Of a stretch of 64,000 nt of DNA, positions 9,546 through 58,952 are shown in pieces. The stretch is taken from contig JAJFGG010000061.1 of assembly GCA_021776235.1 (NCBI GenBank), positions 1 to 64,000 on the forward strand, in the 5' to 3' direction. A model generated the notes under the pieces. It was given only the letters and a program-made list of their open reading frames with translations, did not search any database and had not been told where the DNA came from. This DNA is from Alphaproteobacteria bacterium (GTDB lineage Bacteria > Pseudomonadota > Alphaproteobacteria > GCA-2731375). Made by a program: the position numbers and the translations under genes. How positions within the stretch are numbered: position 1 is the first letter of the stretch; every line of letters begins with the position of its first letter.

Positions 9546-11849
9546 TCAACTGGCCGGCTGTGGCTTGGCGGGACGGGCAAGGCGGCGTAGTTCTTCGATA
9601 TCCGCCTGCTGCCGGCTGGCCACGGCATGGGCCTGAGCCTGGCCGGGTAAATAGGGTTCGGGCCAGGATTGGGCTGCGTGGTCATAGCGGGCGGCGGCAT
9701 TCAGCGTGAAGTGTGGGTCAGCCAGGTGCGGGCGCGCCAGGGCGACCAGATCGGCCCGCCCGGCTGCCAGGATGGTGTTGACCTGATCGGCGGTGGTGAT
9801 ATTGCCCACCGCCATGGTTGGGATGGCGACCTCGTTCCTGATCTGGTCGGAAAACGGCGTCTGGAACATCCGGCCATAGAGGGGCGCCTGGTCCGGTACG
9901 GTTTGTCCGGCGGAGACGTCGATGAGGTCGCAGCCCGCCGCCTTCAACATCGCCGCCGCGGCCAATAGATCGGCGGCTGTCAAACCGCCAGGGTGCCAGT
10001 CCGTGGCCGACAGGCGTACCGATATGGGGCGGTCATCGGGCCACACCGTGCGGACCGCCTGGAATACGCGCAACGGCAGGGCCATGCGGTTCTCAATGGC
10101 GCCGCCATATGCGTCCTCGCGCTGGTTGGTCAGGGGCGAGATAAAGCTGGCCAGCAAATAACCGTGCGCCATATGAATTTCCAGCATGTCGAAGCCGGCG
10201 GTCAGGCCGAATTCCGCCGCCCGGACATAGGCCGCGACCAGGCCTTCCATGTCCGCTTCGTTCATTTCCCGGGGTACGGCGCTATCGGGAAAATAGGCCA
10301 GGGGCGAAGCGGAGATGATCGGCCAATTGCCGCTTTCCAGCGGGTGGTCGGCATCCTGCCAACCCAGCTGGGTTGATCCCTTGCGCCCGGCATGGCCCAA
10401 CTGCAGGCATATTTTGGCCTTGGTGTGCCCATGTACGAAATCGACAATACGGGCCCAGGCGTGGCATTGCGCATCGTTGTAGATGCCGGTGCAGCCCGGA
10501 CTGATGCGGCCGGCCGCATCCACTGCCGTCATTTCGGTAAAGACCAATCCGGCCCCGCCCAGTCCACGGCTGCCCAGATGCACCATGTGCCAGTCGTTCG
10601 CCAGACCGTCGGTAGCGGAATACTGGCACATGGGGGAAACCACCACGCGGTTTTCCAGGGCCATGCCGCGCAGGGTAAAGGGCGTGAACATGGGCACGGT
10701 CCCCGCCGCCGCGCCGGCTTGGCCGGCGAACCAGTCGCGTACGTCCGCCACCAGCTTGGGATCGCGCAAAGATAGATTGTCAAAGGTGATCTGCTTGGAG
10801 CGGGTCAGCATGGAAAAATTGAACTGTATCGGGTGCATGCCCCAGAACCGGTCCACCGTCTCGAACCAGGTCAGGGAGGTGTTGGCGGCGTGCTGTATGC
10901 GTTCCACTTCCTCGCGCCGGGCGGCTTGATAACGATCGGGGGCGGCCCTCAGATCATCACGGTTTGCCTCGCAGGCCTGATACAGGGCAATGGCATCCTC
11001 CATGGCCAGTTTGGTGCCGGAGCCTATGGAAAAATGCGCCGTATGCGCGGCATCGCCGATCAGCACCACGTTTTCGTGCACCCAGCTTTCGCAGTGAATA
11101 TTGGGAAACGCCCGCCAGCTGGAGCGGTTGATCAGGACCTCGGCGCCGCCCAACTCAGTCTCGAACAGTTTCGCCATATAACTGGCGGTCTCCGCCTCGC
11201 TGGTCTGCGCCATGCCGGCAGCCTGCCAGGTTGTCTCTGTGGTTTCGATGATCAGTGTCGCCAGACCGTCCTGATAGCGGTAGGCATGGGCGTTCCAGAT
11301 GCCGTGCTGGTCTTCCTTGAAGATAAAAGTAAAGGCCTGCAGCGGCGCCGTGGTGCCCAGCCAGACAAATCGGTTCGGCCGATGGTCGATGCTGGGCTTG
11401 AACGAGGCGGCATAGGCGTCACGGCACATGCTGTTGACGCCGTCGGCCGCAACCATCAGGTCCGCGTCGCGATAGGGAGCCAAATCCGTTATTTCGGTCT
11501 CGTAGTGGATGGCGACGCCAAGTTCTTCGGCTCGGCGCTGCAAGATCTGCAGCAGGCCAACCCGGCTCATGCCGCAGAAGCCATGGCCGGTTGAGTTTAT
11601 GACCTGACCGCCATAGTGGGTTTCGATTTCATCCCAATAGGCGAAATTGCGGATGATCTGGTCATAGCTTTCTCGGTCCGCATCCCGGAAAAAGCCGAGA
11701 GTCTCATCGGAAAAAACCACACCGAAGCCAAAGGTATCATCCGGACGGTTACGTTCGTAAACCGTGATTTCGTCGCCCGTGTGCCGCTTTTTGGCCAAAA
11801 TTGAGAAATACAGGCCGGCAGGACCACCGCCGATTATATTCGCTTTCAC
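9546..11849 (-). CDS. Bifunctional FAD monooxygenase / Old Yellow Enzyme fusion (salicylyl-CoA 5-hydroxylase or 2-aminobenzoyl-CoA monooxygenase/reductase type)
   Basis: A 767-residue fusion. The N-terminal half is a class A flavin monooxygenase with the FAD loop GGGPAG at 7-12 and the second FAD motif in VLIGDAAHTAHFSIGSG near 265-285. From about residue 395 an NADH:flavin oxidoreductase/OYE barrel begins (FTPFTLRGMALENRVVV, then SPMCQYSA), with the substrate His pair in LQLGHAGRKG and DMLEIHMAHGYLL. This architecture is known from 2-aminobenzoyl-CoA monooxygenase/reductase and salicylyl-CoA 5-hydroxylase, which dearomatise aryl-CoA thioesters. No CoA ligase for an aromatic acid is adjacent. 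A strong palindrome lies 16 bp upstream of the start. Confidence 0.9.
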   Translation of the reverse strand: MKANIIGGGPAGLYFSILAKKRHTGDEITVYERNRPDDTFGFGVVFSDETLGFFRDADRESYDQIIRNFAYWDEIETHYGGQVINSTGHGFCGMSRVGLLQILQRRAEELGVAIHYETEITDLAPYRDADLMVAADGVNSMCRDAYAASFKPSIDHRPNRFVWLGTTAPLQAFTFIFKEDQHGIWNAHAYRYQDGLATLIIETTETTWQAAGMAQTSEAETASYMAKLFETELGGAEVLINRSSWRAFPNIHCESWVHENVVLIGDAAHTAHFSIGSGTKLAMEDAIALYQACEANRDDLRAAPDRYQAARREEVERIQHAANTSLTWFETVDRFWGMHPIQFNFSMLTRSKQITFDNLSLRDPKLVADVRDWFAGQAGAAAGTVPMFTPFTLRGMALENRVVVSPMCQYSATDGLANDWHMVHLGSRGLGGAGLVFTEMTAVDAAGRISPGCTGIYNDAQCHAWARIVDFVHGHTKAKICLQLGHAGRKGSTQLGWQDADHPLESGNWPIISASPLAYFPDSAVPREMNEADMEGLVAAYVRAAEFGLTAGFDMLEIHMAHGYLLASFISPLTNQREDAYGGAIENRMALPLRVFQAVRTVWPDDRPISVRLSATDWHPGGLTAADLLAAAAMLKAAGCDLIDVSAGQTVPDQAPLYGRMFQTPFSDQIRNEVAIPTMAVGNITTADQVNTILAAGRADLVALARPHLADPHFTLNAAARYDHAAQSWPEPYLPGQAQAHAVASRQQADIEELRRLARPAKPQPAS

Positions 11850-11864
11850 GCCTTTTGGTCCTTC

Positions 11865-11914
11865 CTGTCAGCCGCCTATTTGTTTTAAGTATAAAACAAA
11901 TAGGCGGCTGACAG
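11865..11914. promoter_or_regulatory. Perfect 23-bp inverted repeat in the divergent promoter region, likely operator
   Basis: Arms at 11865-11887 and 11892-11914 are exact reverse complements separated by AGTA. The core is AT-rich (TTTGTTTTAAGTATAAAACA) and the outer parts GC-rich (CAGCCGCC). It sits just upstream of the flavin monooxygenase fusion and upstream of ompH on the other strand. Such palindromes commonly bind dimeric MarR- or TetR-type regulators, but no regulator gene is adjacent. As RNA it would also form a very stable hairpin near the 5' end of the monooxygenase transcript. Confidence 0.7.
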
Positions 11915-12082
11915 AAGCATTTCGGAGAATGCGCAGGTATGGCAATTCCATGTTCGGAAAGAATAGGTTACACTAACCGCGTATTCGCAAACGGCAAATG
12001 ATAAGCTCTAAGAAACGGCAAGTTAGCTTGGACGCCAGATAGCTTGGGCGACTGAGGATCGGGTTGAAGGAATGATTGCATA

Positions 12083-12670
12083 ATGGCTCGATGGATCGAA
12101 GCTGCAGGTTCCGTTTTGCTGGCGGGTCTGTTGGCCGGCACGGCAAATGCGGCGGACGCCAAGGCGCCCGAGGCTGCGGCTTCCGTGGGTGGACCGGTAA
12201 TAGCGGTCCTGGATGTTCAGCAGGTGCTGCGCAAGGCCGCAGCGGCAAAGGGGATCCGCACCGCCTTGGATGCGCGCCGCAAGGCATTTGAGGAAGAGAT
12301 CGAGGCGGTGCGCAAGGGTTTGAAGGCGGACGAGCAGAAATTGCGCCAGCAAAGCACAATTTTGTCTCCCGAGGCCGCCACCGAGCGGCGCCGCGTTCTC
12401 GAGACCAAGTTTTCGGATTTGCGGCGCAAGGCCGAACAACGCCGGGGCACCTTGAACCGGGCCTTCACCAGCGCTACCCGGAAGTTGCGCGATGAAATTG
12501 CCAAGGTGCTGGCCCAGTTAATGGCGGAACGGAAGATAACCATGACCCTGGCCCGTACGGCCGTATTGGTTTTTGATCAAAGATTAAGCGTGACTGTCGA
12601 AGTGCTGAAGCGGCTGGACAAAAACCTGCCCAACGTAACCGTCGACTTCAAAAACCCGGACGCCAAATAG
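12083..12670 (+). CDS. OmpH/Skp-family periplasmic chaperone-like protein
   Basis: A 195-residue secreted protein with a signal peptide of about 23 residues (VLLAGLLAGTANA, then AD). It continues with VIAVLDVQQVLRKAAAAKG, the usual N-terminal strand of OmpH/Skp proteins, and a long charged coiled-coil arm (about 70-140). Skp proteins are trimeric holdases for unfolded outer-membrane proteins in the periplasm. The gene is not in the usual bamA-skp-lpxD context, so it may be a paralogue with a different client. The MFS gene follows 33 bp later. Confidence 0.82.
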   Translation: MARWIEAAGSVLLAGLLAGTANAADAKAPEAAASVGGPVIAVLDVQQVLRKAAAAKGIRTALDARRKAFEEEIEAVRKGLKADEQKLRQQSTILSPEAATERRRVLETKFSDLRRKAEQRRGTLNRAFTSATRKLRDEIAKVLAQLMAERKITMTLARTAVLVFDQRLSVTVEVLKRLDKNLPNVTVDFKNPDAK

Positions 12671-26911: not shown

Positions 26912-27925
26912 ATGACGGACGATCTTGGTGCCTGGCTGCAGGCGCTGCCGAAAGTGGAATTGCACCTGCATCTGGAAGGCGCCATTCCCCTGCCGGCCCT
27001 GTGGCGGCTGATCGAGAAATATGGCGGTGAGCCCGGCCTGCACAGCCAGGCGGATTTGCGCCAGCGCCTGACCTACAAGGACTTTCCCGACTTCATCGCC
27101 GCATGGATCTGGAAGAACGGTTTCATCCGCTCGTACGAAGATTTCACCTTCATCGCCGAGGCGATGGCGCGGGATCTGGCGCAACAGAACATCCGCTATG
27201 CGGAGGTGTTTTTCTCACCCACAAGGTTCCTCGATCAAGGTTTGCAGCCTCAGGGCCTGGCCCATGCCATTCGAAAAGGCCTGGACCGGGTGCCCGAGAC
27301 GGAAGTCTGGCTAATCGCCGATCTGGTCCGCGATCATGGCCCGCAACAGGCGCGGGGCACCCTGGCCGAAGTACGGGAGGTGCTGCATTGCGGCATCATC
27401 GGGATTGGTATCGGCGGCTCGGAACACCTGTACCCGCCCGAACCCTTTGCCCCGGTCTACGAGGCCGCCCGCCGCCTTGGTCTCCACACCTCGGCCCATG
27501 CCGGCGAGGCGGCGGGGCCGGAAAGTATCCGCGGCGCCGTCGAGGCCCTGGCGGTCGATCGTATCGGCCACGGTATCGCCGCCCGCCAGGATGCCTCGGT
27601 CATGGACCTGTTGGCGGAGCGTCAGATACCCTTGGAATTATGCCCCCTGTCCAATGTCGCCACCGGTTCCATTGCCGCAATAGGCGAGCATCCGGTGCGG
27701 GAATTCTGGCAGGCGGGCCTGATGTTGACCGTGAATACGGACGATCCGGGCATGTTCCACAACTCCATGGTAGGGGAGTTCACGGTGCTGCACGACGTCT
27801 TTGGCTTCGACCGGGACGAGATCCGCCGCCTGATCCTGAACGGCGTCGACGCATCATGGCAGCCGGCCGACCGCAAGATCGCACTGCGGCAGGCCTTTCA
27901 GGATGATCCGGCCTGGCAGGCGTGA
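26912..27925 (+). CDS. add: Adenosine deaminase family protein
   Basis: A 337-residue zinc-dependent purine deaminase that would convert adenosine to inosine. The metal ligands are visible: ELHLHLEGA with His18 and His20, SAHAGEAAGPESI, RIGHGIAA and the late NTDDPGMF. The CPLSNVATGSI segment is also standard. Bacterial members include adenine deaminases, so adenine cannot be excluded as substrate. It is read in the same direction as the nitrile hydratase genes downstream but separated by 64 bp. Confidence 0.92.
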   Translation: MTDDLGAWLQALPKVELHLHLEGAIPLPALWRLIEKYGGEPGLHSQADLRQRLTYKDFPDFIAAWIWKNGFIRSYEDFTFIAEAMARDLAQQNIRYAEVFFSPTRFLDQGLQPQGLAHAIRKGLDRVPETEVWLIADLVRDHGPQQARGTLAEVREVLHCGIIGIGIGGSEHLYPPEPFAPVYEAARRLGLHTSAHAGEAAGPESIRGAVEALAVDRIGHGIAARQDASVMDLLAERQIPLELCPLSNVATGSIAAIGEHPVREFWQAGLMLTVNTDDPGMFHNSMVGEFTVLHDVFGFDRDEIRRLILNGVDASWQPADRKIALRQAFQDDPAWQA

Positions 27926-27989
27926 CCGTGACAAGGCGGATATCCATTGCTAGGCTAGCGACAAGATTTTGGGCGAAGGAGACGAACTG

Positions 27990-28568
27990 ATGTCGGATGA
28001 GGACGTGGCCCTGCGGGTCAGGGCGCTTGAATCTCTGTTGCTGGAAAAGGGCCTGGTGGAAGCACCCGCCATCGACGAGATCATCGATCTGTTCGAAAAC
28101 CGCCTGGGCCCGCAAAACGGTGCCCGGGTTGTGGCGCGGGCCTGGAGCGATCCGGACTTCAAGGCCCGGCTGCTGGAAAACGCCACCGACGCCATCGTGG
28201 AAATGGGTTACGAGGCGGTGCAGGGCGAGGACATGGTGGTGGTGGAGAATACCCCCAAGGTGCAGAACCTGGTGGTCTGCACGCTTTGCTCCTGTTTCCC
28301 CTGGGCCACTCTGGGCCTGCCGCCGGTCTGGTATAAATCCGCGCCCTACCGCTCCCGCGCGGCCTCGGACCCGCGGGGCGTACTGGCGGAATTCGGTACC
28401 GAGATCGCGGCCGATGCGGAGGTGCGGGTCTGGGACAGCAATGCCGAGCTGCGCTACATGGTGCTGCCGGAACGCCCCGCCGATACCAATGGCATGAGCG
28501 AGGACGAATTGATGGCCCTGGTGACGCGGGACTCGATGATCGGCGTAACGAAGGCCCTGGCGCCATGA
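27990..28568 (+). CDS. nthA: Nitrile hydratase alpha subunit, cobalt type
   Basis: A 192-residue alpha subunit. The metal claw motif CTLCSC sits at 97-102 within [11 protein letters not shown]. Thr at the second position is the mark of the non-corrin cobalt enzymes, and the outer cysteines (100, 102) are oxidised in mature enzymes. It hydrates nitriles to amides in the cytoplasm. The ATG at 27990 follows GAAGGAG; an in-frame TTG at 27969 is less likely. The subunit is followed by a two-piece beta subunit, so thiocyanate hydrolase-like architecture must also be considered. Confidence 0.92.
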
Positions 28569-28608
28569 ATGGCGCCACAGAGGGACTTTCGCCATGAATG
28601 GCGCCACA
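28561..28608. repeat. Two 19-bp direct repeats at the nthA/nthB junction
   Basis: The sequence CGCCATGAATGGCGCCACA occurs at 28561-28579 and again at 28590-28608, with a 29-bp period. Each copy contains ATGAATGGC, which mimics the real beta start ATGAACGGC at 28623. The strong site AAAGGAGGT lies only before the latter. The repeat itself contains the self-complementary GGCGCC. Confidence 0.75.
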
Positions 28609-28622
28609 AAGGAGGTATCCCC

Positions 28623-28934
28623 ATGAACGGCATACATGACATGGGCGGCATGCATGGGCTGGGGCCCATCGAGCGGGAAGCGGACGAGCCGGTTTTTCAC
28701 CATGAATGGGAGGGCAAGGCCCTGGCCCTGGCCCGGGTTGCCCTGGCGGGCGGCCATTTTAATCTGGACGAGTTTCGCCACGTCATGGAACGCATACCGC
28801 CGGTACAATATCTCTCCATCAGCTATTACGAACGCTGGCTGGAAGGCACCGTCGCCTTGCTGGCGGAAAAGGGCGTGATCAGCGCGGACGAGTTCAGCGC
28901 CCGTCTGACTGAACTGTCGGGAGACCCGTCATGA
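28623..28934 (+). CDS. nthB1: Nitrile hydratase beta subunit, N-terminal half (separate polypeptide)
   Basis: A 103-residue protein equivalent to the first half of a nitrile hydratase beta chain. It begins MNGIHDMGGMHGLGPI and continues with FHHEWEGKALALAR and YYERWLEGTVALLAEKG, the helical arm that wraps the alpha subunit. A normal beta chain is about 220 residues and would continue into an SH3-like domain. Here the gene stops and the remainder is a separate gene beginning in a 4-bp ATGA overlap. AAAGGAGGT precedes the ATG. The split parallels thiocyanate hydrolase and toyocamycin nitrile hydratase. The symbol is provisional. Confidence 0.88.
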   Translation: MNGIHDMGGMHGLGPIEREADEPVFHHEWEGKALALARVALAGGHFNLDEFRHVMERIPPVQYLSISYYERWLEGTVALLAEKGVISADEFSARLTELSGDPS

Positions 28935-29284
28935 GCCGGGTCATAACCCGCGAGGTCGTGCAGGGCCTGTACAAGCGCACGGGCACGGCGCGGGTGGACG
29001 CGGACGTCGCCGCCTCTTTCAAGGTTGGCGACGGGATCCGGGCCCGCAATGTGCACCCCACCGGCCACACCCGCCTGCCGCGCTATATTCGCGGCAAACA
29101 GGGACGCATCGCCACGGATCACGGGGTCTTTCAATTCGCCGACAGCCTGGCCCATGGCGGCGGCAAGCAGCCCCAGCATCTCTATTCCGTGTGCTTCACC
29201 GCCCAGGAATTGTGGGGGTCCCAGGCGCCGGCCCGGGACAGCCTGTATATCGACCTGTGGGACGATTATCTGGAAGCGGTTTGA
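28931..29284 (+). CDS. nthB2: Nitrile hydratase beta subunit, C-terminal half (separate polypeptide)
   Basis: A 117-residue protein carrying the SH3-like C-terminal domain of nitrile hydratase beta: FKVGDGIRARNVHPTGHTRLP, then RYIRGKQGRIATDHG, and the closing LYIDLWDDYLEAV. It overlaps the N-terminal-half gene by 4 bp, so the two would be made in equal amounts through coupling. It has its own 12-residue lead (MSRVITREVVQG), arguing for a stable gene split rather than a sequencing frameshift. The symbol is provisional. Confidence 0.88.
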   Translation: MSRVITREVVQGLYKRTGTARVDADVAASFKVGDGIRARNVHPTGHTRLPRYIRGKQGRIATDHGVFQFADSLAHGGGKQPQHLYSVCFTAQELWGSQAPARDSLYIDLWDDYLEAV

Positions 29285-29296
29285 GGACGGCAACCG

Positions 29297-29989
29297 ATGC
29301 GTAAACTGCCGGGCGTTCCCGACCTCGCCATGCCGGCCCGCCGGGGCGGCGCGGCCCAGCCCGGCGATGTCCCCGGCCCGGTGTTCCATGAACCCTGGCA
29401 GGCGCATGCCTTTGCCATTGTCATGAACCTGTACCGGAACGGCCAATACACCTGGGCCGATTGGGATGACTATCTGGGGCACGAGATCCAGTCGCCGGAT
29501 CACTTCGCGGGCGCGCCGCCGCCCGAGGAGGCCGCGGCGAATGGCGGCCGTGGAGCCAATTACAACCGCTTCCTGGCCGCCTGCGAGGCCGATGGCGCGG
29601 CCTATTACCACTATTGGCTGGCCGGCCTGGAAAAGATGCTCCATGTCAAGGGCCTGGTCGGCGGGCAGGAACTGGCGGCCCGCATTGCCGCCATCGCCAG
29701 GGTGGAGGCCGCGGGTCCCCGCTTCAAGGCCGGCGACCGGGTCAAGGTGCTGGATATCGAACTATTGGGCCACAGCCATCTGCCCAACTATATCCGGGGC
29801 GTCAGCGGCATGGTGGAGGCCGACCGGGGCGCCAAGGTCTTCCCCGACAGCCACGGCCACGGCAGGACGGATGCCCTGCAGCACGTCTACACGGTCCGTT
29901 TCCAGGCCACAGAAATCTGGGGCGAAAGCGCCGACCCTCGCCAGAGCCTGAATTTCAGCCTATGGGACTATCAACTGACGCCAATCTAA
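29297..29989 (+). CDS. Fusion of nitrile hydratase accessory (activator) domain and beta-type SH3 domain
   Basis: A 230-residue protein. Residues about 27-115 look like the nitrile hydratase accessory/activator family, itself related to the beta N-terminus (FHEPWQAHAFAIVMNLYRNG, then YTWADWDDYLGHEI, and YYHYWLAGLEKMLHVKGL). Residues about 137-230 are a second copy of the beta SH3-like domain (FKAGDRVKVLDIELLGHSHLP and closing SLNFSLWDYQL). Cobalt-type activators normally deliver metal to alpha by subunit swapping and lack an SH3 domain as large as this. It lies 12 bp after the beta C-terminal half. It could be the activator or an alternative intact beta chain. Confidence 0.8.
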   Translation: MRKLPGVPDLAMPARRGGAAQPGDVPGPVFHEPWQAHAFAIVMNLYRNGQYTWADWDDYLGHEIQSPDHFAGAPPPEEAAANGGRGANYNRFLAACEADGAAYYHYWLAGLEKMLHVKGLVGGQELAARIAAIARVEAAGPRFKAGDRVKVLDIELLGHSHLPNYIRGVSGMVEADRGAKVFPDSHGHGRTDALQHVYTVRFQATEIWGESADPRQSLNFSLWDYQLTPI

Positions 29990-30021
29990 AACGCGATAGC
30001 GTTGCGGACCACTTCGCCGGT
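29986..30021 (-). pseudogene. 3' end remnant of a second alcohol dehydrogenase gene
   Basis: Read leftward, this short segment ends TGEVVRNAIAF then TAG. The intact alcohol dehydrogenase 1.3 kb away ends TGEVARNVIAF then TGA. DNA identity over the 31 bases around 29991-30021 is about 26/31 by eye. The remnant's stop overlaps the stop of the accessory/beta fusion gene. It marks the left boundary of a duplicated or inserted segment. Confidence 0.6.
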
Positions 30022-30149
30022 CTCGTAAAGCAGGGGCACAAAATTTATGCCAATCAGTGCACTGTAGATTCATGCAGCGAATGTGCTACCGGAAATATCA
30101 GATAAGTATTGTCTCGCCAGAATTTTGATAGGGGGAGAAGAAAAAACCA
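30022..30149. other. Left part of an AT-rich insert
   Basis: Sequence composition shifts sharply to AT-rich after about 30030. No gene is supported until the small membrane protein at 30150. Confidence 0.5.
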
Positions 30150-30416
30150 ATGGAACACGTCTGCTCGCTTCTAAGGTCCTATCTTGGACTTTATTACATG
30201 GTGGCTTTTGGATTATTTTTGTTCTCCATAATTTATCTGTACTCTGGACTGGCATCTCTTTCAGTTAGTGATACATGGAAGACGCTACTGCTACAAACCA
30301 AAGCGACAAAAAGGGTGAGGCAAAAGCTATATTGGCGATGTTTGCCCGCTCTTCTTTCTGCCTTCATGGTCATAATTCATAAGAATGCCGACACCGTATT
30401 TGGTTGCCCGTCTTGA
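30150..30416 (+). CDS. Hypothetical small membrane protein in AT-rich insert
   Basis: An 88-residue ORF with one or two hydrophobic segments (about 12-36, YYMVAFGLFLFSIIYLYSGL, and a weaker one at 64-76). It is preceded by GGGGGAG at 10-15 bases. Base composition is far lower in GC than all neighbours, which suggests horizontal origin. No family is recognised. Its 3' end overlaps the next ORF in another frame, so a frameshifted single gene is possible. Confidence 0.5.
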   Translation: MEHVCSLLRSYLGLYYMVAFGLFLFSIIYLYSGLASLSVSDTWKTLLLQTKATKRVRQKLYWRCLPALLSAFMVIIHKNADTVFGCPS

Positions 30417-30982
30417 CGCTTGGGCAGCAAACACGTTGTGTCCCCGGAATTGCCCGGAAATGCAAAACAAAACGCAGGCGCTGGTGGCGTTATGTATTTC
30501 GTACTCTTGGAGTTGTTATCCTGTTAGTCGTCTTTCTTATTGCAATCAGGCTGTCTAATTATATCTCATACGAAATTGACATGAAATACCAAAAAGCGGA
30601 TTTGAAATTGCGAGATCATGTTGTCGAGAGTCTCTCAGAGAGAGGATTCAAACTCACGGTATCTGAGCTGACATCAAAAGAAATTGCGAGCGTATGTATG
30701 CTTGGCCCTGTGTATCCAGAACTATACCATAAATATGACGTCGGTTGGGCGTTCGACGATCAGACGCATACGTTGGCTGTTGACCTTGTAGACGGTACTG
30801 CCATCCTCCTGCCCTTTTTTAGGAATGCACATTTCGATTATTACGGTCCTAAATGCTTTCCTCCCAGTACGTCGTTTCGCCTAATTCATTGGCAGGTGGC
30901 TAATCGAAAGTTTGGGCTCAATAAGCCGGGTCCCGAACGTCATGGAATGAGTTATTGTTTGGTCCCAGTTGATGGTGAATAA
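30404..30982 (+). CDS. Hypothetical membrane-anchored protein in AT-rich insert
   Basis: A 192-residue ORF with a basic N-terminus (KTKRRRWWRYVFR), one transmembrane segment (about 34-50, LGVVILLVVFLIAIRL) and a polar C-terminal domain of about 140 residues containing three cysteines, presumably periplasmic. The only plausible starts before the membrane segment are TTG codons (30404 or 30413), so the true 5' end is uncertain and may lie in the preceding ORF's frame. Low GC and no homologue recognised. Confidence 0.55.
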   Translation: MPVLTLGQQTRCVPGIARKCKTKRRRWWRYVFRTLGVVILLVVFLIAIRLSNYISYEIDMKYQKADLKLRDHVVESLSERGFKLTVSELTSKEIASVCMLGPVYPELYHKYDVGWAFDDQTHTLAVDLVDGTAILLPFFRNAHFDYYGPKCFPPSTSFRLIHWQVANRKFGLNKPGPERHGMSYCLVPVDGE

Positions 30983-31100
30983 ACTATGGATATGCCAACA
31001 ACATCGGATTTATTAATTTGCAGACTTGGATCTGTTGCATGGTTATGCAGACGCCAAAACCGGGGTAGTATATGTTTAATCAGTCGTTGGGAGCTTCCGC
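30983..31100. other. Right part of AT-rich insert
   Basis: AT-rich sequence without a supported gene. It ends abruptly at about 31100, where nitrile hydratase-like coding sequence resumes. Confidence 0.5.
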
Positions 31101-31235
31101 ATCTTTCCCGATAGCCATGGCCACGACAGGACCGACGCCCTATCGCAGGTCTACATGGTGCGTTTTCAGGCCGCGGATATCTGGGGCGAAGCGGCGGACC
31201 CGCATCAAGGTCTGAGTTTCAGTTTGTGGGATTGA
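31101..31235 (+). pseudogene. Duplicated 3' end of the nitrile hydratase accessory/beta gene
   Basis: In one forward frame this stretch reads FPDSHGHDRTDALSQVYMV, then RFQAADIWGEAADPHQGLSF, and ends SLWD-stop. It parallels the end of the intact gene (FPDSHGHGRTDALQHVYTV ... SLWDYQL) residue for residue with few changes. There is no start codon or upstream domain, because the frame begins abruptly at the edge of the AT-rich insert. It is the right-hand copy of a duplicated junction, lying directly before the intact alcohol dehydrogenase 3' end. Confidence 0.85.
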
Positions 31236-31239
31236 CGAC

Positions 31240-31265
31240 TGGGGCCGGGCTGATACCCGGCCCCA
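31240..31265. terminator. 10-bp perfect GC-rich hairpin between convergent genes
   Basis: Arms TGGGGCCGGG (31240-31249) and CCCGGCCCCA (31256-31265) enclose CTGATA. It lies between the nitrile hydratase remnant and the alcohol dehydrogenase stop, where a bidirectional terminator is expected, but it has no T-run on either side. Confidence 0.5.
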
Positions 31266-31280
31266 GCCTGGTAAATCGTA

Positions 31281-32366
31281 TCAAAAGGCAATGACGTTGC
31301 GGGCCACTTCGCCGGTTTTCAGATCGGCCATGGCGTCGTTGATCTGCTCCAGCTTCAGCCGGCCCGAGATCATTTGGTCCAGCTTCAGATCGCCGCGCAT
31401 ATAGAATTCCACCAGACGGGGCATATCGACCCGAAAACGGTTGGAACCCATGGAAGAGCCCTGGATCTTCTTCTCCTGCAGGAAATCCGGTCCATGCAGT
31501 TCCACATTGGTGCCCACGGGGACCATGCCGATGATGGTTGCCGTGCCGCCGCGCCGCAAGGCGCGGAAGGATTGTTCGGCCGTAAGCTTCAGGCCTACCG
31601 CCTCGAAGGAATAATGCACACCGCCTTCCGTCAGGGCGCGGATCTGCTTGACCACGTCGCCGTCGGCGGGATTGACCACGTCGGTGGCGCCAAATTCCTT
31701 GGCCAGGTTCAATTTGGAGCCGACCATATCGACCGCGATGATCTGCCCGGCACCGGCAATCGCCGCGCCGTTGACGGCCGAGAGGCCAATGCCGCCACAG
31801 CCGAAGACGGCGACGGTAGAGCCCGGTTCGACCTTGGCGGTATGGAACACCGCGCCGACGCCGGTCATCACGCCGCAACCGATCAGGGCGGCGCGGTCCA
31901 GGGGCATGTCCTCGCGCACCTTCACCATGGAATGTTCATGGGTCAGGATGTATTCGGCATAGGAGGACAGATTGGCGAACTGGCCCATCACTTCGCCGTT
32001 CTGGGTCAGGCGTTGCTGGCCGTCCTTGGCCCGCTGCACCATGGGGCTTTGACAAAGCGACATGCGCCCGGTCAGGCAATACTCGCATTCGCCGCAGAAG
32101 GTGGAGAGGCAGGTGATGACATGATCGCCCGGCTTCACATAGGTCACATCCTCGCCCACCGCCTCGACCACGCCGGCGCTTTCATGGCCCAGGACACAGG
32201 GGCAGGGGATGGGATACAGCCCTTCGATGAAATGCAGATCGCTGTGGCAGACGCCGGCGTAAACCGTGCGCACCAGCACTTCGCGCCGGGCCGGTTTGTC
32301 GATTTCAATTTCCTCGATGGTCAGGGGCGCATGGGCCTCCCGCATTACCGCAGCTTTCGCTTTCAT
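31281..32366 (-). CDS. Zinc-dependent alcohol dehydrogenase (class III-like)
   Basis: A 361-residue medium-chain dehydrogenase. Catalytic zinc ligands are Cys40 (GVCHSD) and His61-Glu62 (GHESAG). The structural-zinc lobe carries Cys91, 94, 97 and 105 (FCGECEYCLTGRMSLC), and the NAD loop is VFGCGGIGLSAV. The style matches NDMA-/glutathione-dependent-type long-chain ADHs. The substrate is unknown. Its convergent position beside nitrile hydratase sequence is repeated at 29986, so the pairing existed before the rearrangement. Confidence 0.92.
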   Translation of the reverse strand: MKAKAAVMREAHAPLTIEEIEIDKPARREVLVRTVYAGVCHSDLHFIEGLYPIPCPCVLGHESAGVVEAVGEDVTYVKPGDHVITCLSTFCGECEYCLTGRMSLCQSPMVQRAKDGQQRLTQNGEVMGQFANLSSYAEYILTHEHSMVKVREDMPLDRAALIGCGVMTGVGAVFHTAKVEPGSTVAVFGCGGIGLSAVNGAAIAGAGQIIAVDMVGSKLNLAKEFGATDVVNPADGDVVKQIRALTEGGVHYSFEAVGLKLTAEQSFRALRRGGTATIIGMVPVGTNVELHGPDFLQEKKIQGSSMGSNRFRVDMPRLVEFYMRGDLKLDQMISGRLKLEQINDAMADLKTGEVARNVIAF

Positions 32367-32453
32367 TTCGAATGTCTCCTAATGTCGGTCACTTAATTGC
32401 CTGTTGCCGGATGCTAACATCCGCAGGGTACGGGGCCAACGGCTAACGCTGCC

Positions 32454-34358
32454 CTATTCCGCCGCTTCCGCCAGCTTCGACGGCGCCGTGCGGCCCATCC
32501 ATTTTTGGAAGACCGGGGTCTCGGGCGGATCCAGGGTGGTATCTTCCTTGCAGCGGGCCTTCAATTCCGCCACCGTGCCGCCGAAATCGAACAGTTCCAC
32601 ATCGCCCCGTTCGGCGGTCATGCGGCGGCGCAGGTCCTCGGTGCCGCGCTGATCGACGCCGAAATCAGGGCCCAGGACAACGCCATAGCGTTTCGCCCCT
32701 TCGATGGTGATCAAGCCCCGTTGCGCATCGAGCGAGACCATGGCGGGATCGCGCTGCAGGCGATCGCCCCAACCGCCGCCGCCCCAGGTATTGAAGTACA
32801 GGATATCGCCGGCGTTGACCTTGATGCGGTCGCATTTGGATTCCATCCATTCCTGGCTACCGTCGGCCCGCACCATCAACTTGTTGCTGCGCGCGCCCGG
32901 CAGACCGCCGTTGACGCCCCAGGGGTGGGTCAGCCAGCGGTCGTCGTGAATGGAAATATTGCCCGGCTCGAGAAATTGATAGCCCATGGACAGGCCATTG
33001 CCGCCCCGGTGCAGGCCCGGCCCGCCACTGTCCGCAATGGTTTCATACTGCACGATGCGCAGGGGGAAATAGGCTTCCAAAAACTCGTTGGGAACGTTGG
33101 TGAAGGCCGGCCACAGGGAATGGCCGTCGGCGCCATCGCCGGCCGGCCGGCCGGGAATGCCGCCAAAGCCGATCTGATAGAGCTGATACCATTCGCCGTT
33201 CTTGTCATAGCCGGAATACATGAAATGGGGGCTGTCGGAGAAACCGGCGGCACACAGGGCATCGGGCGAGCCCTGGCCCAGCAGGCCGCTCATAATGTCG
33301 AAGATCCGGCCCAGCAGATGGGTCCGGCAGCTCAACGCCGCCGGGCGGATCGGCTTCAGTATGGTGCCGCGCGGTATACGCACCTCGACCAGATCGTAAA
33401 AACCGTCGTTGAACAGGATCTGCGGGTCGAACATGTTGATGAAAAAGGCGCCCAGGAACATCTTGAACATCTCTTCATTCAACAGGAAATTGACCGAGCT
33501 GATGGATTGCGGATCCGTGCCCTCGAAGTCAAAGATCGCCATGTCGCCCTCGCGCCACAGGGTGCAGGCGATCTTGTAGGGGCCCATGCCGACGCCGTCG
33601 TCGTCGATGTAATCCTCGAAATACTGTTTCGTCTCGGGGATCACCTGTTTCAGGATGGCGCCCATGGCGCGCTTGTTGCGCTCCAGCATCTCGTCCATGG
33701 CGGTGACGAACTCGTCGACGCCGAAGCGTTCGCAGTTCTCCACCACGCGGCGTTCGGCCATGCGCAGGGCGGCGATGATGGCGTTGAAGTCCGAGCGGTT
33801 CCATTCCGGCAGGCGGCAGTTGCGCAGGATCAGTTCCAGGATTTCCTCGTTCAGGACACCCTTGCGGTAAATCTTGATGGGCGGGATCTGCACCCCTTCC
33901 TCGAACAATTGCGCCGCGTCCGTGGGCAGGCTGCCGGGAACCTTGCCGCCGATGTCCGTCATATGGCCGAACATGGCACCCCAGGCGACGATGCGGCCGT
34001 CGATATAGATGGGCATCATGGTCAGCCAGTCGTTCAGATGGCTGATGGCGCCGTTGCAGAAGTAGGGATCGTTGGTCAGGAAGACATCGCCTTCCTCGAT
34101 GGTGCCGTCGTAACCCGCCTGGAAGCCATGGAAGAAGGAACCGAACTGCCCCACCACCATCTTGCCGTCCTGATTGGCGATCATGGGAAAGGCATCGTGC
34201 TGTTCCCGGATGCCCGGCGACATGGCGGTGCGGAACAGCACCGCATCCATTTCATCGCGGGCATTGCGCAAGGCGTTCTCGACAATATCCAGGGTGATCG
34301 GGTCCAGATCGACGTTCCGGAACGGTGTATTGTTGCTTTGGATTATTTGTGCTGGCAT
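32454..34358 (-). CDS. hyuB: Hydantoinase B/oxoprolinase family protein
   Basis: A 634-residue beta-type subunit of the ATP-dependent hydantoinase/acetone carboxylase superfamily. It begins LDPITLDIVENALRNARDEMD, the standard family start, followed by REQHDAFPMIANQDGKMVVGQ and the FLTNDPYFCNGAISHLNDW metal-site region. It forms a complex with the HyuA-type subunit encoded 18 bp upstream and acts on a cyclic amide or ketone with ATP hydrolysis. The actual substrate cannot be inferred. Confidence 0.92.
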   Translation of the reverse strand: MPAQIIQSNNTPFRNVDLDPITLDIVENALRNARDEMDAVLFRTAMSPGIREQHDAFPMIANQDGKMVVGQFGSFFHGFQAGYDGTIEEGDVFLTNDPYFCNGAISHLNDWLTMMPIYIDGRIVAWGAMFGHMTDIGGKVPGSLPTDAAQLFEEGVQIPPIKIYRKGVLNEEILELILRNCRLPEWNRSDFNAIIAALRMAERRVVENCERFGVDEFVTAMDEMLERNKRAMGAILKQVIPETKQYFEDYIDDDGVGMGPYKIACTLWREGDMAIFDFEGTDPQSISSVNFLLNEEMFKMFLGAFFINMFDPQILFNDGFYDLVEVRIPRGTILKPIRPAALSCRTHLLGRIFDIMSGLLGQGSPDALCAAGFSDSPHFMYSGYDKNGEWYQLYQIGFGGIPGRPAGDGADGHSLWPAFTNVPNEFLEAYFPLRIVQYETIADSGGPGLHRGGNGLSMGYQFLEPGNISIHDDRWLTHPWGVNGGLPGARSNKLMVRADGSQEWMESKCDRIKVNAGDILYFNTWGGGGWGDRLQRDPAMVSLDAQRGLITIEGAKRYGVVLGPDFGVDQRGTEDLRRRMTAERGDVELFDFGGTVAELKARCKEDTTLDPPETPVFQKWMGRTAPSKLAEAAE

Positions 34359-57147: not shown

Positions 57148-57537
57148 GTGTACCCGGGCAAATACGCAATTCAGCATCCTGACAAGCCGGCTTTCATCAT
57201 GGCGGAAAGCGGCGAGGTGGTGACCTACCGCGAGTATGAAGCGCGCTGTAACCGCCTGGCGCACCTGCTTCGGGAACCGAGTCTGAAACAAAAAGACCAT
57301 TACGCCATCTTCACGGACGGCATCTATGGACGATCGCGCAACCCCATTTACCTCTCCATGCTGATTGGCTTCGCCGGCATTGCCATTGGCGCTGGCAGCC
57401 TGGCCTCGTTCCCGTTGCTGGTGGTTTTCTGGGCCATTCTGCAGTTCTATGTAATCGCCCGAGAGGAGCGCTATCTCGAAGCCAAGTTCGGCCAACAGTA
57501 CAGCGATTACCGGAACACCGTGCGGCGCTGGCTGTAG
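57148..57537 (+). CDS. Chimeric ORF: acyl-CoA synthetase N-terminus joined to isoprenylcysteine methyltransferase-like C-terminus
   Basis: A 129-residue ORF (GTG start). Residues 1-52 (YPGKYAIQHPDKPAFIMAES ... LAHLLREPSLKQKDHYAIF) match the start of AMP-binding acyl-CoA synthetases. From about 53 the sequence changes to GIYGRSRNPIYLSMLIG ... AREERYLEAKFGQQYSDYRN, the C-terminal half of ICMT/PEMT-like membrane methyltransferases. Neither half is complete: no adenylation motifs are present and the methyltransferase lacks its first helices. It is most likely the scar of an in-frame deletion joining two genes, whether or not it is still translated. Confidence 0.75.
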   Translation: MYPGKYAIQHPDKPAFIMAESGEVVTYREYEARCNRLAHLLREPSLKQKDHYAIFTDGIYGRSRNPIYLSMLIGFAGIAIGAGSLASFPLLVVFWAILQFYVIAREERYLEAKFGQQYSDYRNTVRRWL

Positions 57538-57664
57538 GGTTAGGGTTTCTTTGGACCCCAATTCCTGCCACTACTGATGGAGTGCATGCAGCGTGGCACT
57601 CAGGACTTGGCCGTAACGACGCGGCGGAATTGGACAGAACCGTAACGATCGATAGGAGCCTACA

Positions 57665-57844
57665 ATGCGTATTTACGCTCTAATATTTCTGAATTTATTG
57701 CTTCCGGGGTTGGCGGTGGCGGCGTCGCACGAGGCTGGGGAGAAACTTTCCTATATCGAACGAATGGGCCTTTACGCGGATTGGGCCATTATCCTCCTCC
57801 TTATCCTGGCTGTCGTAGCGTTTGTTAAATTCGGAAGAAAGTAA
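57665..57844 (+). CDS. Small membrane protein (59 residues)
   Basis: A 59-residue ORF beginning MRIYALIFLNLLLPGLAVAA, which resembles a signal peptide. A polar segment of about 18 residues follows, then a second hydrophobic helix (WAIILLLILAVVAFVKF, 40-56) and a basic end GRK. AGGAG lies nine bases before the ATG. The length is below many gene-calling limits. No family is recognised. It follows the chimeric ORF by 127 bp. Confidence 0.65.
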   Translation: MRIYALIFLNLLLPGLAVAASHEAGEKLSYIERMGLYADWAIILLLILAVVAFVKFGRK

Positions 57845-57989
57845 TAGCCGGGCTCGGCCTGAGACAAATGGATGTCTGTTTCGTGCCGGAAATTTTCAGC
57901 CTGAATGCATCGGTTGTGCTTGCGTCGGTTTCACCGCCCCGAAAGTACCGTCGTCACAATTCTACAATTGCGGCATTTTCTCCGTAGCT

Positions 57990-58952
57990 TCAATCGTTGA
58001 CCAGTGGCATGACGTTGGCGGCGAATTCTTCCATACGCTCCTGCATGGCGCCCAGGTCGTCGGCAGTCAGGTTGATGATCATCGACGTGGTGCCAACCTC
58101 TGCGAAGGCACGGATATCTTCGGCCCGCTGTTCCGGGCTGCCGGTGCAGATCAGGCGGCCGCCGTCCCGGTGTTGCTGCGCCTGGGTTGAATGAAAGGCG
58201 CAGTTATAAGCCAGCCCGATGGAGGCGGGGTCGCGGCCGGCCTCTTCCGCCAGACCGTGCAGTCGCTGCACCCGGGCGCCATAGGCTGCCAGGGTATCCA
58301 TGGGGAACTTGGGGTTGCTGCCGAAGGGATACCAGGTATCGCCCATGGCCACGGTACGGCGCAGGGCCGGGGCGCTTTCACCGCCGATCCAGATTGGCGG
58401 GTGTGGCTGCTGTACCGGTTTCGGGTCCATGCCGATCTTGTCGAACTTAACGAACTCACCCGCGTAGACCGGTCGCGCCTCGGTCCAGATCGCCTTGATG
58501 GCCTGGATATACTCGTTGGTTACCTGGCCTCTTGCCGCGAAGGGGGGTAGTCCCAGCGCCTCGAACTCCTCGCGCAGCCAGCCCGCGCCGCAGCCAAACG
58601 TGACCCGCCCGCCGGACAGCTTATCAATGGTCGCCAGGGACTTGGCCATGAACAGCGGGCTGCGATGGGGGACCACGGTGACCGAGGTCAACAGCCGGAC
58701 CCTGGAGGTGATGGCGGCCAGCCAGGACAACAGGGTGAACTGCTCCATACATTCCACATCACCACCCTCGGCCCAGGGAAAATCCCCGGTCTCGCTATAG
58801 GGATAGGTGGAGTCTATCTCCGTCGGCACCACGATATGATCAGACACCGTCAGATAATCATAGCCCAAGGTCTCGGCCGTTTCGGCCAGGCTGCGGATGC
58901 TGGCCGCGTTCGCCAACGGGCCGCGGATTGGTGCGCTAACGCCGAATTCCAT
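57990..58952 (-). CDS. LLM-class flavin- or F420-dependent oxidoreductase
   Basis: A 320-residue luciferase-like protein with the short N-terminus MEFGVSAPIRGPLANAASI. SDHIVVPTEIDSTYPYSETG is near 38-57, TSVTVVPHRSPLFMAKSLAT near 88-107 and VTFGCGAGWLREEFEALG near 116-133; this layout is typical of the TIGR03619-like F420-class. The ATG at 58952 has GAAGGA upstream; the longer frame is not used. It lies divergent from the cupin-SDR-selenoprotein series. Confidence 0.88.
   Translation of the reverse strand: MEFGVSAPIRGPLANAASIRSLAETAETLGYDYLTVSDHIVVPTEIDSTYPYSETGDFPWAEGGDVECMEQFTLLSWLAAITSRVRLLTSVTVVPHRSPLFMAKSLATIDKLSGGRVTFGCGAGWLREEFEALGLPPFAARGQVTNEYIQAIKAIWTEARPVYAGEFVKFDKIGMDPKPVQQPHPPIWIGGESAPALRRTVAMGDTWYPFGSNPKFPMDTLAAYGARVQRLHGLAEEAGRDPASIGLAYNCAFHSTQAQQHRDGGRLICTGSPEQRAEDIRAFAEVGTTSMIINLTADDLGAMQERMEEFAANVMPLVND

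Follow-up and report, generated by a model that had tools for sequence, protein, structure and literature searches.

In this study, a window of 64,000 nucleotides from an alphaproteobacterium (contig JAJFGG010000061.1, positions 1 to 64,000, assembly GCA_021776235.1) was analyzed around a duplicated gene junction. A nitrile hydratase operon, read rightward, ends in a complete accessory/beta-C fusion gene (NHact, 29297–29989, + strand), and a zinc alcohol dehydrogenase gene (ADH, 31281–32366, − strand) is read leftward. The convergent junction between them is present twice, with an unstranded AT-rich insert of about 1.07 kb (30022–31091) between the copies. This is a real insertion-duplication of an ordinary kind: the target stretch is duplicated, and NHact and ADH are both complete despite the insert. 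An insertion of the single-crossover type at this junction was the favored origin, with a probability of about 0.5.

The two copies are direct repeats. The NHact tail (left copy, 29838–29995, + strand) matched 31102–31259 with 73% identity over 158 nt. The left ADH 3′ end, a 34-bp remnant ending in TGEVVRNAIAF-stop (29988–30021, − strand), matched 31283–31316 with 85% identity over 34 nt. The starts of the two pairs were 1264 bp and 1295 bp apart, respectively, in agreement with a first-pass annotation that had placed the same junction twice about 1.25 kb apart. Homology stopped at 30021, and identity past this position fell to 10/39. The whole window was scanned without gaps on both strands. 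The true partner of the 158-mer had 116/158 matches, and the runner-up, the paralogous beta-C gene at 29133, had 86; the true partner of the 34-mer had 29/34 matches, and no other site had 24 or more. Both true partners thus stood far above every other site.

The composition of the insert was different from that of its surroundings. The guanine-plus-cytosine (GC) content over 30024–31095, the span used for the GC and shuffle tests, was 43.8%, while the window mean was 60.2% (standard deviation 3.8, 500-bp windows). The third-codon-position GC of the longer open reading frame (ORF) in the insert, ORF B, was 0.41 from position 30482, compared with 0.73–0.82 in nine flanking genes. The low-GC DNA of about 1 kb that had been noted between the junction copies was thus confirmed by GC content and by the third-position GC of ORF B. 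Other lower-GC stretches of the window were 11501–12250 and 57501–58000 (GC 0.51–0.54). The insert had no second match anywhere in its own genome. Against the genus, the best E beyond the NHact and ADH ends was only 0.37 or worse, and no relative was found in phage and plasmid collections of 50,697 and 72,556 records, respectively.

The same junction was compared in other species of the genus. Among 61 genomes searched, the own genome being one of them, all ten congeners (10/10) had NHact relatives, and up to 20 kb was fetched around each relative. In seven congeners (G001, G002, G005, G006, G008, G009, and G010), NHact meets ADH directly across a short intergene without an insert; the G008 contig stops 41 codons into ADH. 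The flanks were kept in all seven, with LLM, ADA, and the nitrile hydratase operon upstream and ADH downstream, and hyuB lay past ADH in five of them. The insert was therefore present in this genome and in 0/7 congeners having the junction. No ADH was found in the fetched stretches of G003, G004, and G007, and the nitrile hydratase operon was more distant there. The empty site in 7/10 congeners and the composition of the insert supported one part of the first-pass annotation, the proposal that foreign-looking DNA was captured where the convergent junction is duplicated.

The right copy is collinear with the native ADH, and by comparison with G006 the right junction retains the ancestral layout. 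G006 aligned with it in one unbroken stretch of 402 bp at 81% identity, spanning the NHact tail, the intergene, and ADH. The missing intergene of the left copy, where the NHact stop and the ADH end overlap, split the alignment of the left side into two pieces of 287 bp and 32 bp. The native junction contains a strong hairpin with a perfect 11-bp stem (31238–31266). In comparison with shuffled sequences, its z value was −4.3 on the + strand (1/200 shuffles as stable) and −6.3 on the − strand (0/200). G006 has a weaker hairpin in the same place (0/200), and the left junction showed little folding on the + strand (7/200) and none on the − strand (96/200). Since the hairpin has no U run, it is at most a candidate signal for the 3′ end of the ADH transcript.

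The right copy of the NHact tail (31092–31235, + strand; start at about 31092 read by eye against G006) has changed at conserved positions. It deviated at 7/25 residues that were invariant across eight other sequences; in leave-one-out controls, G001 deviated at 2/27 and the seven other rows at 0/25. It differed from the majority at 11/66 first and second codon positions, compared with 4–6 in every other row. Its frame ends early, just after SLWD, while the others continue. These substitutions and the early stop mark the right tail as a decayed relic, or pseudogene, and the left tail is constrained like its orthologues.

The divergence of the two tails was investigated at third codon positions. 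Left and right differed at 16/33 sites; left differed from the congeners at 11–19/33, and right at 13–18. By this measure, the two tails stand as far apart as do separate species of the genus. The right-tail value is inflated, since that copy is a decaying pseudogene. Such divergence is compatible with a donor belonging to another lineage and also with a duplication dating to about the time of the split from G006 and G010. The tail tree (133 columns) had no starred branch and gave no supported placement for either copy. In approximately unbiased (AU) tests on this tree, p was 0.383 for a left and right clade, 0.239 for left with G006, 0.205 for right with G006, and 0.316 for right with G010. 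Both a diverged donor of one tail and an old duplication giving rise to both would fit these data. The first-pass annotation had suggested that two diverged locus copies recombined. This may have happened: the third-position differences are species-like, but sister copies were not rejected.

Whole-gene trees were also compared. The operon upstream of NHact joined the window with G006 and G010 (97/98, starred). In the NHact tree, the window gene fell outside G006 and G010, yet that grouping was not rejected (AU p 0.466 for the gene, and 0.156 and 0.262 for its first and second parts). A donor-derived gene conversion of NHact was considered and rejected, because sliding identity had no clear switch and the species grouping was not rejected, although the trees differ.

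A single homologous crossover would explain the gene order as follows. Ancestrally, the nitrile hydratase operon would have ended in a gene standing tail to tail with ADH, as in the congeners. The incoming DNA would have carried a junction stretch of about 190 bp (NHact tail and ADH end) joined to an unrelated, AT-rich sequence of about 1 kb. One crossover within the shared stretch, for example with a circularized or tandem molecule, would leave complete NHact followed by a fragment of the ADH end, the insert, a fragment of the NHact tail, and complete ADH. Both genes would remain whole. The leftover right NHact tail, useless as protein, would decay, and the hairpin of the right junction would be retained, perhaps as an end signal for ADH. 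This is exactly the order seen, and the completeness of both genes is as predicted for a single crossover with a molecule that brings in a second copy of the junction.

In Campbell-type insertion-duplication by a single crossover, the insert is flanked by direct repeats of the target and the target genes remain whole. The locus resembles this type in its direct target repeats, its two whole genes, and the lack of an evident deletion. It differs in that the repeats are only 73–85% identical, the left repeat lacks the intergene, and no vector or donor is recognizable. Several points weigh against the single-crossover origin. The searches of the own genome, the genus, and the phage and plasmid collections did not yield a donor of the insert. 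The two tails are only 73% identical, and recombination between tails already so diverged would be inefficient; if they were identical at insertion, much change has occurred since. A plain copy of the right junction would include an intergene, which the left copy does not have. The tail tree, with its AU p of 0.383 on 133 columns, locates no crossover point and assigns no origin to either tail.

An old local duplication is a possible, though less favored, explanation. Repair of a break at the junction would have duplicated about 190 bp of the target and placed filler DNA of about 1 kb between the copies, after which the left copy was selected and the right was free to change. The right tail does change like unconstrained DNA, left and right as sisters were not rejected (AU p 0.383), and 16/33 third-position differences were only marginally above the expectation for an age equal to the G006 split (P 0.063 at a rate of 0.342; 0.020 at 0.30). 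However, the distance between left and right is no smaller than their distances to other species, so an age close to the split from the nearest congeners is required. The absence of the intergene from the left copy also weighs against a local duplication.

Homology-facilitated illegitimate recombination was considered improbable. Linear DNA of a relative would have paired within NHact and joined illegitimately, through 3–10 bp of micro-homology, before the native tail, pushing that tail downstream. According to one report, such a mechanism was proposed for displaced 3′ gene ends in the Vibrio type VI secretion system (T6SS) and rhs loci (PMC5361080). As described there, those loci have one 3′ end in place and another downstream with unrelated DNA between, as here; in contrast to them, the gene here encodes an accessory protein in an enzyme operon, that protein has not had its end swapped for a new kind, and no deletion is seen. 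In the NHact tree, the window gene is separated from G006 and G010, with which the rest of the operon groups; this is consistent with the proposal, but the grouping with both was not rejected (AU p 0.466). Moreover, according to another report, this type of recombination generally deletes about as much as is inserted (PMC3240628), whereas the present locus has two complete genes and a duplication of about 190 bp. The same report states that linear DNA circularized by ligation can enter the chromosome (PMC3240628).

A remnant of an integrative element that used a gene 3′ end as its attachment site and lost its integrase is very unlikely. The e14 prophage entered icd of Escherichia coli by site-specific recombination and left a 163-bp displaced 3′ end as a pseudogene, according to PMC6379469. 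In that account, the layout is shared with the present locus: a complete gene with a supplied 3′ end stands on one side, and a displaced pseudogene copy of the 3′ end lies at the far end of the insert. Unlike the prophage as described there, the insert here is about 1 kb and carries no integrase, and the repeat extends over the end of a second, convergent gene. No integrase, phage gene, or transposase family matched ORF A or ORF B above cut-off, and the 50,697 phage and 72,556 plasmid records held no relative. No inverted repeat of at least 12 nt linked the insert ends, so neither this feature nor a transposase pointed to a transposon or insertion sequence. Less probable still is a minimal element of about 1 kb with one orphan membrane-protein gene (ORF B), which would enter convergent junctions by bringing a copy of the junction, leave the neighbors whole, and carry no recombinase of its own. 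An assembly artefact joining contigs of two strains at about 30030 or 31092 is the least probable reading, because the flanking genes are similarly close to G006 (94, 89, and 87% on the left; 94, 95, and 91% on the right) and in the same order, and because the right tail is a decayed pseudogene while a chimera would join two working tails.

The first-pass annotation had counted two orphan ORFs in the insert, of which one stood. ORF A (88 aa, 30150–30416, + strand) is not distinguishable from chance, since an ORF at least as long arose in 1903/5000 dinucleotide shuffles of the insert. The length of ORF B (192 aa, 30404–30982, + strand) was reached or beaten in 5/5000 shuffles, and ORF B is a probable orphan gene. 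No other ORF longer than 61 aa lay wholly inside the insert. Against 96 genomes, ORF A had weak matches in three others (E 0.005–0.09). The GC of ORF B by codon position, from 30482, was 0.54, 0.36, and 0.41. Its start codon is TTG, and inspection by eye showed no evident ribosome site, so ORF B may be cut at its 5′ end. A structure model from 30482 had a mean predicted local distance difference test (pLDDT) score of 50, with the first 30 residues at about 90 or above. The sole well-predicted part is likely an N-terminal membrane helix.

Relatives of ORF B were searched for widely. Nothing above cut-off was obtained in Pfam, NCBIfam, PHROGs, PDB sequences, plasmids, phages, or viral contigs. 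The genome searches covered overlapping sets of 11 genomes of the genus, 15 of the family, 385 of the class, 398 of the phylum, and 369 of the class of G733. At E ≤ 0.01, these gave, besides ORF B itself, only two weak matches, both judged to be chance: one at E 0.003 within a 677-aa frame of a different kind, and one at E 0.007 with 48 aligned residues in a 110-aa frame. In the genus search at E up to 10, all non-self matches were at E 0.17 or worse. In addition, no Rfam match was found in 27000–33000, and a promoter scan of 29700–31400 found no promoter.

Neutral evolution of ORF B was simulated. It was still open in 475/4000 runs at 0.10 changes per site and in 125/4000 runs at 0.16. The right-tail decay (11/66 versus 4–6/66) points to an age roughly of the simulated order, which makes selection on ORF B plausible and hints that it has been kept for some use. 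The decay of the spare gene end serves as a rough clock: the insert is old enough for the right tail to have lost conserved residues, and at such an age a useless ORF B would often have acquired a stop. The locus shows, in one lineage, foreign DNA settling in a chromosome without breaking a gene.

The genes around the junction were identified by profile matches. The alpha subunit of nitrile hydratase (27969–28568, + strand) matched Pfam NHase_alpha (2e-86) and TIGR01323 above its own cut-off, and it contains CTLCSC, which we take to mark a cobalt-type nitrile hydratase. The beta subunit is split over two genes followed by the accessory/beta-C fusion gene (28620–29989). The separate N-terminal half (28620–28934, + strand) matched NHase_beta_N (3.7e-37), and the separate C-terminal half (28931–29284, + strand) matched NHase_beta_C (6.1e-33). 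NHact matched NHase_beta_C (2.8e-26) and TIGR03889 nitrile_acc above cut-off, and its protein had 82% identity with the nearest congener protein. ADH was also identified in this way and is intact. Several congeners have a His-rich stretch in the NHact tail. In G007, G003, and G004 (L009, L010, and L011, respectively), NHact is followed directly downstream by a second NHact-like copy, which is more distant.

An origin of the insert from a palindromic repeat was also considered. A single arm inside the insert (30102–30118) resembled a repeat of G010 with 2 mismatches and may be chance. The arm pattern was picked only after the sequence had been seen, no second arm was found, and a match also occurred in 7/100 window shuffles, so this origin was rejected. 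In the G010 genome, the pattern had 18 forward and 19 reverse matches at ≤2 mismatches. The NHact–ADH intergenes of G010 (L025), G001 (L022), G008 (L026), and G002 (L027) contained differing palindromic repeats by eye, and the junction seems to receive small palindromes repeatedly.

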